From Candidatus Thalassarchaeum sp. (GTDB lineage Archaea > Thermoplasmatota > Poseidoniia > Poseidoniales > Thalassarchaeaceae), in the NCBI GenBank assembly GCA_022449945.1, contig JAKURM010000008.1, positions 1-45,918 on the forward strand: a stretch of 45,918 nucleotides of DNA, given 5' to 3'. The notes below the pieces were generated by a model. It had not been told where the DNA came from and did not search any database. It saw only the letters and a program-made list of their open reading frames with translations. A program made the position numbers and the translations under genes. This document shows positions 3,501-36,952 of the stretch, piece by piece (the stretch's first letter is position 1; every line of letters begins with the position of its first letter).

Positions 3501-4278
3501 TCTCGGTGCTATGCTTGGAGGTGGGCTTCCCGCACCGCTTAGCGTGAACCCATTAAAGGGAGAGTTGGTTGATTGGAAGGTGCCTTGGATGCTTCTCGAG
3601 ATGCTGTTGGTACTATGCGTCTTCTTCGGATTCTGGTTGGATGAGAAGAGGTTGCAAACCGGCCGAGGCCAGCAAACGAATGGTTCGATGATCGGTGCTC
3701 GAACGTTTGCGGTAGTCATGCTTTCATTTGGCGTTGCAGGGATACTAGCTTCTGCCAGTGGCTGCTATAGGAGTTGGAAGTCTTCCGAACCATCTGGCCT
3801 AGGAATTTCCCTACCCGCTGGAATGATTGCTTTGGTTTCAATCGCCTCATGGAACGAGATACTATGGGACGTGATGTTCGAGTTCGTTCTGGCATTCGGA
3901 CTGTTGCTAATTGTTGCCTGTGTGCTGACTGTCCCCCTAAAGATGGAAAAGTGGACAGTGACGATCGCTGCCGATGGGCACCTATTCGTCATTTCAGGGG
4001 CCCTGGGGATGGGTCTGCTCGTGCAAATCGAGATGCCGATGCTGTTGGTAACCATGTCAACAGCGGTTTGGGTAGTGGGAATACTGCAACTCAGGAAGGC
4101 AATGAGAATTTGGGGTCTTGCCGAGTTGGTCGCAGCTGTACTTTGTTCACTGATATTCGTTTCAAGCGAGATCACTCAACCTGAGAACCTGCTAGTAGGG
4201 CTAATTGTCTTAGCACTTGAGTTGGGAATAGTGGCTTGGCTGGGTTCGGCTAGGCAGGAAGAACTCGTTAGAGACTAG
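535..4278 (+). CDS. Very large polytopic membrane protein (1247 aa, dozens of hydrophobic segments), function unknown
   Basis: Single long ORF with an acidic hydrophilic N-terminus followed by repeated hydrophobic helices; DUF2339-like appearance only. Confidence 0.85.
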   Translation: MMTDEEPDDKIIRERQFRRSTGIDIIDLNHNSSEEEGEVSPPEDEALGDVFDPFIDKGGSAPGAVRSDGTVQSEPERDIVTNLAIDGESRVNWILMASMVVVYSAISIQIGRTFDPALGTLALLLLASIGFVLGEYWVPKEGMTLLGVTWVIISMKVLYGLAIELRQWGIIDSDLLLGISLLVLVGLNIYVSYRHDQDAIAAQSTLVLLAIGSTAGTEFGETGVAAMILLATILVHGLALNRNSGNLASLGIASSNLWIGMHALTSGFEIGQLRVLSLDSPLLLFMLLMTVTALNAVMAARFAREENWFSKGFETVGLGKPGLWGVSTSLGMVGAILAVASNRDDVGYALGMITFLGGAFGGSYLVVRGVGTRRVALPLVSSGLLLSLLLLGGDGVRDSLGISSYQVFTVLGALVTGAVVLRDQSSVSDRVLWVGSVAILGILVILVPAEFSDSGGDGGALLLGLLGVLHIGTAILALMRNSPSLAGVTVLLPWSWMLIEEVVQESYRTIMLANDISDPGGMVELSPLPLAIYLSLSCILLYVVNSRMGGKGVNLASSFLGITEISSSIRDSGILQLWSIGLWLPALTVLFMAQFGGFDSVTIVAVISLLAGTHAYASVRGLRDGGGRGIMCAIAFIALVVQWRHGLEQEMLIILCITVAYLVQFGEEEFSLGMGLVSLPVLVAITDRRGPITIEEPSWLSGDVLSFPSVEVVAVACSMLLLAIYLPKADKLEKMLPAAASSLGLIVVTIVLALNSDETGLVAASVSMFAVTSIWLIARGELRSELKTMAKRDRVLEEAGLDSSGTPILNGEGVDSYNPKIAELMELRKKKSHLSETADLDELLTTDISHRPVVGMFVLAIVLASTTIMGALFGSSQEIWPLFLLASGGFSALIVLLIRNRTRGLELHLPHILGIEMPIAFSIVGLSLALVTAHVISPGSSNQILLDLAVHTILILLLVVISLVHQKNLLDRISIAIDWFVLSLLSVRVLGAMLGGGLPAPLSVNPLKGELVDWKVPWMLLEMLLVLCVFFGFWLDEKRLQTGRGQQTNGSMIGARTFAVVMLSFGVAGILASASGCYRSWKSSEPSGLGISLPAGMIALVSIASWNEILWDVMFEFVLAFGLLLIVACVLTVPLKMEKWTVTIAADGHLFVISGALGMGLLVQIEMPMLLVTMSTAVWVVGILQLRKAMRIWGLAELVAAVLCSLIFVSSEITQPENLLVGLIVLALELGIVAWLGSARQEELVRD

Positions 4279-4295
4279 GGGGCGATGCTCCTGAA

Positions 4296-5300
4296 GTGCC
4301 AACGTTGATGATGGGCGGTTGGTACAACGGACTCGTGACAAGGTCCTGGATATCGGATACTCCCGACGAGGTAGAGCACCCTCCAATACCCCTCGGCCTA
4401 AACAGAATGGCCGTTCCTAGAGCTGCACTAGTGCTATCGATAGGGACTGTTGTGGTGTTAATATTCTCAGCTATATGGGTAGGAATCTCGGCAATCAGTT
4501 TTCTCGATGACCTTGAAGCGAGTTTCGGAACTACTGACGTCGAAATGCTTGAGTCCGAAGGTAGATGGATTTGGGAGATCTCCCTTCTTTTCGATACCTG
4601 CTCCTCTAGGGAAGACAATTGGGAGTGGCCCGAGTCTCTTGCCGAACAGGATGGTAACTTTCTCTATCCAGGCGAGTTGAGATGCGACTGGGAACATCAG
4701 GGAGACGGGGATGCGGCTAGCGTTGCCGTGTTCAATCGAGGAAACGAGACGCTCAGTCTGGTTTTGGAAATCAGCGGAGGAGGTGTGGTTTTCGCTTCTG
4801 GTGGCGAAGAGAACCTAATCATCAACGATCTAGGGCCCAATGAAAGCATAATTCTGGAGATCGACCTTATCGAGAGCATTACTGAACGCGAAATTAGCAT
4901 CACTGCCACCCATGTCTCGGTCCTCCAAGCACAGGTCCGATTAGATCTGAATATTTTCGAAGGCACTGAACAGAAAGACGTGCATGTCGATTACAACGAT
5001 AGGATCGAGGTGGATTACATAGTCTGGAATGCCGATACCGACGAGCAACTGGACGAAGGGACGTTGTGGGTTACTGCAGGAAACGACCCCGCCTACATCG
5101 ATGGATTCGAATGGTCCGCAATCGGACTAGACATTGACTCCGATAGAGGAGGCCTCTACCCAGGAGTCGATACCGGGACCTCCCACACTACTCTCCTGCC
5201 CCCCCCTATTGCCTATGGGAACTCAGATGATCACGAATTGAAGGACAGTTGGCTCAGATTCCAACTCAAGGTCAACAGAGCCCCCCTGTCAAGCGGTTAG
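4296..5300 (+). CDS. Membrane-anchored extracytoplasmic protein, possible degenerate C-terminal FKBP-like domain
   Basis: One strong TM segment (AALVLSIGTVVVLIFSAIWVGISAI), then an acidic ectodomain. The C-terminus (VDYNDRIEVDYIVWN...GTLWVTAGNDP..IDGFEWSAIGLD...TTLLPPPIAYGNSDDHELKDSWLRFQLKV) resembles the FKBP block PPxxAYG...LxFxVxL. Confidence 0.7.
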   Translation: MPTLMMGGWYNGLVTRSWISDTPDEVEHPPIPLGLNRMAVPRAALVLSIGTVVVLIFSAIWVGISAISFLDDLEASFGTTDVEMLESEGRWIWEISLLFDTCSSREDNWEWPESLAEQDGNFLYPGELRCDWEHQGDGDAASVAVFNRGNETLSLVLEISGGGVVFASGGEENLIINDLGPNESIILEIDLIESITEREISITATHVSVLQAQVRLDLNIFEGTEQKDVHVDYNDRIEVDYIVWNADTDEQLDEGTLWVTAGNDPAYIDGFEWSAIGLDIDSDRGGLYPGVDTGTSHTTLLPPPIAYGNSDDHELKDSWLRFQLKVNRAPLSSG

Positions 5301-33548: not shown

Positions 33549-34634
33549 ATGGCAACTGGTAGTTTGGAGTTCTATGCTTCGTTCGTTCGCAAAGTAGACG
33601 GGCCGTGCTCCATTATCTGCATTGAAGAAGATGTCATGGTTGCTGGTTCTCGGAACGGGGAACTGTCGACTTGGGAAATTAGCAGCGGATCGAAGAAATG
33701 GAGTCTTGAGTTCGATGGGCATTGCTCAAGTGCAGACATCAATGATGGGTTGGTCTTCCTTTCGGAGTCCGATAATCTACATTGCATAGAAATCGAGTAC
33801 GGGGAGTTACTTTGGAGCAGTGAGCTGGAGGGTTCCTGCGATTTGGTCAAATTCTCCAATGAAGGGATATGGGTAACCTCTTCCGTCTACAGCCTAGAGA
33901 TACAGGACTACTATGATAGTGCAGTATGGCTATTTGACTATCAAGGTGGTCTAATGGAAAAATGGTCAATTGAGGGGAGGGCTTGGTCATTGGATTCTGT
34001 ATCTCAGGCTGCCATAATCGGGCTCAGCAGACCAAAATGCGGCTATTGCACCGTTACTCGGGAGGAGGGCGTTAAGTACCATTCTCTAGACATCTCAAGT
34101 CCAGTAACTGTAGGAATGTCGAGTCATAAAGGGGCTCTTCTGGGCCACAGCGATGGTAGCATGAGTCATGTTACAATGGATGGATCTTATTCGACGAGCA
34201 TTGGGGAGGGATCAGTTTCCGCATTGAGCATGCATGAAGACTGGGTAATTGGGATGGATTCTGGAGAACTGGTATCCGGCGACAATATGGGTTCATGGAA
34301 AGTAGAATTAGGAGGAATTGTTGACTTGGTGAAATTGGGCCCTTCTCCCGATGGGGGGTCATGTGTGTGGGCTTCATCTTGGTCCGATTCATGCAAATTA
34401 TCTCTTCTCGAAACCCATAGTGGTCTGGAAAAAATGAAGATTCTTCATGGCGATAGAGTATCTGTGGGTTCTTCGGTGCCAGGAATAATTGCTCTCGGTG
34501 ATAATTGTGGTCGAGTTTTTCTCCTGGAAGACGAGGTTATTGGCCGAAGGAGAAATCAAGTTGATAGAAATTTGGACGATGATAAAAAGAGTGAACTGCT
34601 AAGAAGAAAGATTCGCGAGCTCAGGATGAAGTGA
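33549..34634 (+). CDS. Beta-propeller (PQQ/WD-like repeat) protein, function unknown
   Basis: Repeated blades such as VMVAGSRNGELSTWEISSGSKKWSLEFDG and LVFLSESDNLHCIEIEYGELLWSSELEG; charged C-terminal tail. Confidence 0.7.
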   Translation: MATGSLEFYASFVRKVDGPCSIICIEEDVMVAGSRNGELSTWEISSGSKKWSLEFDGHCSSADINDGLVFLSESDNLHCIEIEYGELLWSSELEGSCDLVKFSNEGIWVTSSVYSLEIQDYYDSAVWLFDYQGGLMEKWSIEGRAWSLDSVSQAAIIGLSRPKCGYCTVTREEGVKYHSLDISSPVTVGMSSHKGALLGHSDGSMSHVTMDGSYSTSIGEGSVSALSMHEDWVIGMDSGELVSGDNMGSWKVELGGIVDLVKLGPSPDGGSCVWASSWSDSCKLSLLETHSGLEKMKILHGDRVSVGSSVPGIIALGDNCGRVFLLEDEVIGRRRNQVDRNLDDDKKSELLRRKIRELRMK

Positions 34635-34692: not shown

Positions 34693-34707
34693 GGGAAAGG
34701 TTTATGA
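34693..34707 (+). promoter_or_regulatory. Archaeal BRE/TATA-like promoter for the candidate ncRNA
   Basis: GGGAAAGG followed by TTTATGA, about 25 nt before the first strong hairpin. Confidence 0.45.
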
Positions 34708-34727: not shown

Positions 34728-35310
34728 CTTTGCCGCTCCGGGGGAGTGGTGTGAGGGCGCTTCGGCGCGACTCGCGGGCCACATAACCGAGCCCCAAAGC
34801 TGGGGCGGTAGAACCGAGATTCGAAAGGAGATCGGGGAAAGGCTGGAACGTCTGTGGACGGGAAGGCAGCGGCGACGAAATCGGAGGAACTGGACGCAAG
34901 GAAGGGGAGAGCGAGAAAGAAGCTGCAGAGATACACGCGCGTAGGGGGAAGAGAATGAACCTGGGTCGCGGAAAAGTGGGAAACGAAGTGGAGAGAACCG
35001 GACGCAAGGAAGGGGAAGGAAACCGAGGGAAACACTTGGGCAACAAGGGCGGGGAGACCCGTGGAGGAGCTCGTATCGAATCGTGGAAGGAGAATACCGA
35101 GAGGTAGGAACGGAAGCGGAGACGGCAAAAGAGAGAGAGATCGTTCAAGAGTCGGAAAATGACAAAGGGAGAGCACGAAGTCCCGGAGTCTTCTACCCGG
35201 GGAAACTCGGGCCTTCGGGCCCGAGGGACACCCGGACCCTGCGGAGTTAACAGGGGGGGATGCTCCCCCATGTGCAGAACCCCCTGTTGCTCCCACCTGT
35301 TTACTTCGGC
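34728..35310 (+). ncRNA. Candidate large structured non-coding RNA, no family recognised
   Basis: About 580 nt with no credible ORF. Purine-rich and T-depleted (34861-34920: G 27, A 22, C 9, T 2). Hairpins: CCGCTCC/GGAGTGG 34733-34749; GAG..GCGC-TTCG-GCGC..CTC 34753-34773; GCCCCA-AAGC-TGGGGC 34791-34806; CTCGGGCC-TTCG-GGCCCGAG 35206-35225; AACAGGGGG/CCCCCTGTT 35249-35257 with 35280-35288. Confidence 0.65.
34888..35016 (+). repeat. 22-nt near-identical direct repeat pair inside the candidate ncRNA
   Basis: GAACTGGACGCAAGGAAGGGGA ending at 34908 and GAACCGGACGCAAGGAAGGGGA ending at 35016; 108-nt offset, one mismatch. Confidence 0.85.
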
Positions 35311-35350: not shown

Positions 35351-36952
35351 TCAAGAACTGGGCCCTATCATGTTCTCAGGCCTGACCCATTCATCGAATT
35401 GCTCGTCAGTGAGCATCTCCATCTGAATCGCGCTCTGCCTAAGAGTCAGGCCTTTCTCATGGGCGTTCTTCGCTATCTTGGCTGCATTGTCATAACCTAT
35501 GTGTGGGTTTAGAGCTGTGACTAGCATTAGCGAATTCTCAAGGTGTTCAGATATATTTTCCTTATTGGCCTCCAAGCCCGAAACGCACTTCTCTGAGAAC
35601 GAGATGCAAGTATCAGAAATCAGTCTGATGCTGTGTAGGAAGTTGTGAATCATCAGCGGTTTGAACACATTCAGTTCGAAGTTCCCTTGGCTGCCACCAA
35701 TGGAAATCGCCGTATGGTTCCCAATTACCTGGCAGCAAACCATTGTCATTGCTTCAGACTGAGTTGGATTTACCTTGCCTGGCATGATGCTGGAACCTGG
35801 CTCGTTTGCAGGTAGAGCCAGTTCTCCAAAACCGCATCGGGGACCTGATCCTAGCCATCTGATGTCATTGGCTATCTTCATCAGTGAGACTGCGAGAGTG
35901 TTGAGTGCGCCAGATGCAGAAACGATTGCATCGTGAGCAGCCAATTGTGCAAACTTGTTCTCTGCACTTTCAAATGGAAGGTCGGTCTTTTCTGCGATTT
36001 TCTCTGCGACCAAATTTGCGAACTCAGGGTGCGTATTCAGGCCTGTTCCCACAGCAGTACCTCCCAGGGCCAGTTCGAATAGGTCCACCAGAGAGGACTG
36101 GATTCTAATCAAGTCTGCATCAAGCATTGAGACATATGCTCCGAATTCCTGATCCAGTGTTAGTGGAACTGCATCCATCAGATGTGTTCGCCCAATCTTG
36201 ACTATGCCAGAGAACTCTTCTGACTTTGCAGATAGTTGTGAACGTAATTTAGCGATTGCTGGAATTAGTCTGTGTTGAACTTCCTCTGCGGCAGCGATGT
36301 GCATTGCAGTAGGGAATGTATCGTTGCTGGATTGAGCCCTGTTCACATGGTCATTCGGGTGAATTGGCGTCTTGCTGCCCAGTTTTCCCCCCGCCATCTC
36401 AATTGCCCGATTGGCAATGACCTCGTTGGCATTCATATTCGTCTGTGTCCCAGAACCAGTCTGCCAAATCCTGAGGGGGAAATGTTCGTCCAGAGAACCC
36501 GAAATAACCTCATTGCAAGCCTCGGATATCAAATTCCCAATCTCCTCATCGAGTCCCCCGAGTTCCACGTTAGTCTCGGCTGCAGCTTGCTTCAGAACCC
36601 CAAAAGCACGGATTACCGACCTGGGCATCCTGTCTTCGCCAATGTCGAAGTTGACCAGGGACCTGGCCGTCTGTGCGCCAAAGTACCTATCGGCAGGGAC
36701 CTCTATCTCCCCCATGGTGTCCTTCTCAATCCTGAATTTTCCTTTCGATGTCTTCGGTTTCCTAGGTTCGCTCGGGACAGAGTCAGTCCGTGGAGGCTCG
36801 CTACCTGAAAGCGAGCTTTCAATCATCCTCGAGATGGTTGCAGACCTTCCGCTCTGTCTTCCCTTTCCAACTCTGGCGTCCAACCTCTTGGCCAGATTCT
36901 CTGGTATGCTGACTGTGATTATCCTTCGATCGCCCGCACGGTGCTTTGCCAT
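35351..36952 (-). CDS. fumC: Class II fumarase with an N-terminal ribbon-helix-helix (CopG-like) domain fusion
   Basis: Fumarase core [30 protein letters not shown] ... [18 protein letters not shown] ... [17 protein letters not shown]-terminal [40 protein letters not shown] fits an RHH fold. Confidence 0.88.

Follow-up and report, generated by a model that had tools for sequence, protein, structure and literature searches.

Evidence for a long noncoding RNA gene, outside the catalogued RNA families, at a syntenic locus of Candidatus Thalassarchaeaceae

A plus-strand RNA gene between convergent neighbours

The window, by which we mean the whole stretch of 45,918 nt that was analysed, comes from a genome of Candidatus Thalassarchaeaceae (Marine Group IIb; order Poseidoniales, Thermoplasmatota). 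Two genes that serve as syntenic markers, a PQQ_2/BamB-like beta-propeller gene (33549–34634, plus strand) and a convergent class II fumarase gene (35351–36952, minus strand), border a gap that a sequence-only reading of the DNA had described as lacking a credible protein; we likewise find no conserved protein between 34634 and 35351. Homologues, a covarying fold and the lack of coding signal instead largely support a long noncoding RNA (ncRNA) gene of about 569 nt at 34730–35298 on the plus strand, matching no catalogued RNA family. The sequence-only reading had bounded its candidate at 34728–35310; gene and strand stand, while the ends are refined, the 5′ end to ~34730 by promoter spacing and the 3′ end to at least 35298 by a conserved terminal helix together with CCCACCU.

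Upstream of the gene lies the BRE/TATA-like element GGAAAGGTTTATG (34694–34706, plus strand), previously placed about 25 nt ahead of the RNA; its TTTA stands 29 nt before the RNA start. The position of this box is conserved: 73 of 81 homologues, drawn from the host's family and from a second one, carry a TTTA/TTAA-type box exactly 29 nt 5′ of the RNA start, within the upstream consensus cGaAA.gTTTAT. This conserved promoter points to transcription of the ncRNA as its own unit; no terminator signal was established for it.

The composition of the region is unusual. The plus strand of the gap has 11% T against 28% in the adjoining genes, the top 300-nt purine windows of the entire 45.9 kb fall in the ncRNA region, and the segment 34861–34920, for which 82% purine had been claimed, recomputes to 81.7% with 3.3% T. 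Two long open frames, of 214 and 207 amino acids, run over the ncRNA on the minus strand and would favour a protein-coding gene; judged from comparison with relatives, in which these frames are disrupted, both are by-products of the T-depletion. Among genus members we count 92 indels relative to the window sequence, none of them a multiple of three, so the region is not coding, and the genus comparison reveals no three-base periodicity. That the region encodes a protein, on whichever strand, or is a compositional artefact is therefore vanishingly improbable. Cells of the consensus fold contain 263 G-U but only 13 A-C combinations, which makes the plus strand the RNA strand; these counts, together with the promoter, rule out a minus-strand RNA.

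As a separate observation on the neighbours, the fumarase of the window carries an N-terminal extension of ~70 residues that is unusual for fumarase, with a sub-threshold match to the ribbon-helix-helix family PF01402 (E = 0.006) at residues 12–45; some fumarase matches in the second family span the extension, and others begin only at residue 62–74.

Conserved terminal domains and a modular centre

Folded as a single sequence, the ncRNA departs only mildly from expectation (z = −2.1 on the plus strand, −0.75 on the minus strand), and we therefore built the structural case on comparison rather than on one fold. The conserved 5′ domain (34730–34811, plus strand) forms a predicted four-way junction of P1 (34730–34734/34807–34811; UUGCY/RGUAR, with C-G to U-A changes), H1 (34736–34739/34743–34746), H2 (34748–34779, with a UUCG loop) and H3 (34791–34806). 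Across the 30 sequences of the corresponding alignment (A1), 95.8% of cells are paired, and double-change cells number 44, where shuffles give 10.4 and slid controls no more than 12. Two cUUCGg hairpins reported by the sequence-only reading are indeed present, at 34757–34768 and 35206–35225; in the genus consensus fold the latter, CUCGGGCC-UUCG-GGCCCGAG on the plus strand, has every cell paired across the genus and compensatory change at two pairs. The 9-bp closing helix noted near the 3′ end was also recovered, as AACAGGGGG/CCCCCUGUU (35249–35257/35280–35288); it is the long helix of a 3′ terminal domain (35242–35296, plus strand) that further comprises a GGAG/CUCC pairing and a conserved loop. 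In the alignment of this domain (A3; 21 sequences from both families) compensatory change affects 10 of 17 pairs, with 39 double-change cells in the terminal helix against 8.4 ± 3.2 in shuffles.

The signal extends to the whole RNA. Against column shuffles, which ignore relatedness (the slid controls, applied to the 5′ domain and the 3′ helix, preserve phylogeny), the genus consensus fold reaches −336 kcal/mol compared with −242 to −266 (about −253) in 12 shuffles and has 35 compensated pairs compared with 2–10, and that of g5, a genus of the second family, reaches −412 compared with −200 to −222 (about −209), with 88 compensated pairs compared with 16–22. Lack of covariation had been named beforehand as a sign against the candidate; compensatory changes far above the controls instead strongly support a structured ncRNA. 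Two further pairings were considered and set aside. The pairing GGUAGA/UCUACC (34807–34812/35192–35197) proposed by RNAalifold is not preferred, because P1 shows covariation and this rival pairing shows none in the genus, and a kissing interaction between the H1 loop and the C-rich loop of the 3′ hairpin was dropped when the loops of genera g15 and g17, inspected by eye in the aligned sequences, proved non-complementary.

Between the terminal domains, the consensus fold predicts a purine-rich array of short hairpins with compensatory pairs (34812–35187, plus strand), whose length varies between genera. It includes two copies of a 34-nt module of the type GAACYGGAC-GCAA-GGAAGGGGA, at 34875–34908 and 34983–35016 (both plus strand; 82% identical), and an 845-nt homologue (L065) has six. 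The module is predicted to form a hairpin that is capped by a GNRA loop and contains a purine-purine internal loop; the pair that closes it is swapped from C-G to G-C among relatives. Such a structure explains a large part of the purine richness of the ncRNA. Overall length ranges from ~435 nt in genus g13 to ~920 nt in g9, with ~570 nt in the window, and one g13 homologue (L136) has a 207-nt tandem internal duplication that homologue L137 lacks.

Several homologues depart from this plan in other ways. In three g9 loci (L142, L143 and L145) the 3′ terminal hairpin recurs 325–331 nt downstream on the same strand, which suggests a 3′ duplication that would either lengthen the RNA (to ~1.23 kb) or provide alternative ends. 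In two g5 homologues (L185 and L186) the array consists of many UUCG-capped hairpins with GGAAAC/GGACC linkers, and the 52-nt spaced repeat there is unlike the GCAA module of the window in sequence. One genome has a second element, near a MoaA-like gene at 3940–4450 of locus L141 (G018:C32); it resembles the ncRNA in its TTTATG promoter and in a hairpin like H2 (88% over 40 nt) but is otherwise different, and may be a shortened paralogue of the 5′ domain.

Distribution, synteny and loss across Poseidoniales

In DNA searches, 22 of the 25 genus genomes had a full-length homologue. Across the family, 102 of 149 genomes gave a match, including 13 of the 14 that are near-complete, and most matches between genera had identities of 66–81%. 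The ncRNA exceeds both flanking genes in conservation, in one example at 87–88% compared with about 75% and 62%. An exact search for the 5′ motif in 85,488 species genomes returned almost only Thalassarchaeaceae or Marine Group II records. A contig labelled Acidimicrobiaceae (L274; PBPU01000093.1) holds a g9-type copy matching the models of the 5′ domain and the 3′ terminal helix described below, and is most likely a mis-binned archaeal contig. The 5′ pattern gave a single chance-like match in 2.9 million viral contigs, and a viral or mobile origin was rejected on this result.

Covariance models of the 5′ domain (R1), the 3′ domain (R2) and the 3′ terminal helix (R3) extend this range. Weak matches to R1 and R2, independent of one another, occur paired on one strand and in the right order, 435–921 nt apart, in distant genera that had been left out of model building (g9, g11 and g13, and g7 of the second family). 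The R3 model adds genera g8, g5 and g22, and found no match outside the two families among 346 genomes sampled across the phylum. Together the structure models reach all genera of the family that were followed up and three genera of the second. Conservation, whose absence from relatives had likewise been named as a sign against the candidate, is strong, and it reaches into the second family.

The genomic setting is equally stable. In all eleven genera first examined (ten of the host's family, and g7) the ncRNA lies 3′ of an M32-peptidase/beta-propeller gene pair, and the convergent fumarase gene follows wherever the locus extends far enough, save in two g13 loci; in the second family, g5 and g22 likewise have the ncRNA here. 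Several second-family genera do not have it, absences being recorded in g2, g3, g4, g6 and g18–g21, and in g20, g6 and one g3 genome this absence is precise, with the beta-propeller and fumarase stop codons ~10–30 nt apart. From these comparisons, several second-family genera have evidently lost the ncRNA, and lost it cleanly. On a fumarase tree, a single-gene phylogeny with weak support in places, presence is clustered and requires five changes, three of them forced, a pattern consistent with one origin and several losses. We rejected the neighbouring genes as obligate partners, since genomes that lack the ncRNA still carry them, and because several second-family genera manage without the ncRNA, its function is dispensable or replaceable.

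Possible function and relation to known RNAs

We infer, with a probability of roughly 0.55 for the explanation as a whole, that the ncRNA is a trans-acting scaffold or ribonucleoprotein (RNP) RNA, ancestral in Poseidoniales, that works in the manner of OLE, GOLLD or ROOL while being unrelated to them. It would be made as a stand-alone plus-strand gene from its own TATA promoter; since it lies between two convergent genes, it is not the leader of any mRNA. The fixed ends, the 5′ four-way junction and the long 3′ terminal helix, may cap and stabilise a particle, and in the middle the short purine-rich hairpins, GNRA- or UUCG-capped and duplicated or lost over time, could present many copies of one docking surface, to which a protein or a second molecule of the RNA would bind. 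The RNP or RNA assembly that results would be of the kind formed by OLE, GOLLD and ROOL, for which there is precedent in that all three are large RNAs that assemble with themselves (PMC12286853).

As both convergent genes face it with their 3′ ends, its position also fits a cis-acting element that belongs to the beta-propeller or the fumarase mRNA, either a 3′ untranslated region or a convergent-terminator structure. The ncRNA, however, is preceded at a constant 29 nt by a promoter of its own, is long and better conserved than the genes that flank it, and is missing from g20, g3 and g6 where both of those genes remain, so that we hold such a role to be very improbable. Somewhat more credible, if still unlikely, is a protein sponge in the manner of CsrB/RsmZ, whose many purine-rich hairpin modules with GGA/GGAA would titrate an RNA-binding regulator protein, with the dose set by copy number. 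The 569 nt contain 36 GGA, compared with 23.6 ± 3.6 in shuffles, and module copies range from 2 to 6, as a sponge would have it; yet a sequence-conserved 5′ junction and 3′ helix exceed what a sponge needs, and the GGA excess may instead reflect structural purine-purine internal loops. Sponges of the CsrB/RsmZ type are bacterial, GGA-enriched and variable in module number, without conserved junction or terminal domains, and we know of no canonical CsrA in archaea, which also counts against this reading. A large ribozyme or catalytic RNP is less probable than a sponge: although a compact tertiary fold is suggested by the many GNRA loops, the junctions and unpaired stretches of high conservation, GGGCCACAnnAACCGA for example, the ncRNA matches no group I or II intron, RNase P or other Rfam ribozyme, and extensive central variation with repeat expansion is unusual for a catalytic core.

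A different kind of alternative, compatible with a scaffold or RNP role, is that the RNA is in part known already. A Red Sea RNA-Seq study (PMC5069720) describes Thalassoarchaea ncRNA 1 (Tan1) as an unassigned, abundant Marine Group II transcript of 229 nt, fifth in RNA-Seq, with a ‘complex secondary structure’ and homologues at 75–79% identity. Tan1 might be a fragment or processed form of the ncRNA: by that description Tan1 too is structured and comes from the same group of organisms, and the identities of the Tan1 homologues compare with the 66–81% found here between genera. Against this, a length of 229 nt is under half that of the ncRNA, which measures 539–845 nt in the compared members of the family, and a large truncation would be unexpected in a study that reportedly recovered RNase P and SRP RNAs at full length (PMC5069720). 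We consider the identity doubtful, if the most plausible of the alternatives weighed here; beside Tan1, our literature search found no other description of the ncRNA.

We would also propose, more tentatively than the scaffold or RNP role itself, that the ncRNA is the first archaeal class of large ornate RNAs, an RNA of order-level range that, in one of the most abundant archaeal groups of the ocean, builds an RNA-based or RNP particle with a size set by module number. The novelty claimed is for the RNA class, for which we found no relationship to any catalogued family; the notion of large ornate RNAs already exists, those described so far coming from bacteria and phages. If the proposal holds, such RNAs exist also in archaea, at one locus in an archaeal order of abundant plankton. 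The locus supplies its own test material: many variants that span 435–1,230 nt, natural differences in repeat number, and genomes from which the RNA is precisely absent. It also offers a candidate identity for unexplained abundant transcripts of marine metatranscriptomes.

Comparison with catalogued RNAs was made by covariance search. At gathering thresholds, Rfam 15 (whose families include OLE, GOLLD, ROOL, RNase P, SRP, group I and II introns and snoRNA) gave no match at this locus in the window or in 12 homologous loci, and a scan at E ≤ 10 yielded chance-level matches only. The sequence-only reading, which had looked by eye for RNase P, SRP and other known signatures and found none, is borne out on this point; its description of a large ornate archaeal RNA that it could not assign gains support from this result and from the strong conservation and covariation. 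Like the ncRNA, archaeal RNase P RNA (RF00373) and SRP RNA (RF01857) are large stable archaeal RNAs, but they are separate genes, and both were rejected as identities for the locus: RF00373 has no match here and is found elsewhere in 30 of 40 relatives, including the ncRNA carriers G004, G009, G010, G015 and G022 (G000, 88% complete, gave no RF00373 match), and RF01857 has no match here, the SRP RNA of G000 lying on contig C102.

The closest parallels are in architecture. With OLE RNA (~600 nt, from Bacillota) the ncRNA shares its length, an intricate covarying fold, a stand-alone gene and restriction to one clade; it differs in being archaeal rather than bacterial and in having no sequence or covariance match to OLE. 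The k-turn of OLE is bound by the L7Ae-like protein OapC, and a counterpart was not detected in the ncRNA: in a crude sequence scan of seven homologues, k-turn-like motifs occurred at shuffled frequency, and docking of L7Ae through a k-turn was set aside accordingly. To GOLLD and ROOL, phage-borne RNAs that form nanocages (PMC12286853), it is alike as a large ornate RNA that combines conserved regions with variable linkers; in contrast to them it is chromosomal and syntenic, and it matches neither in Rfam.
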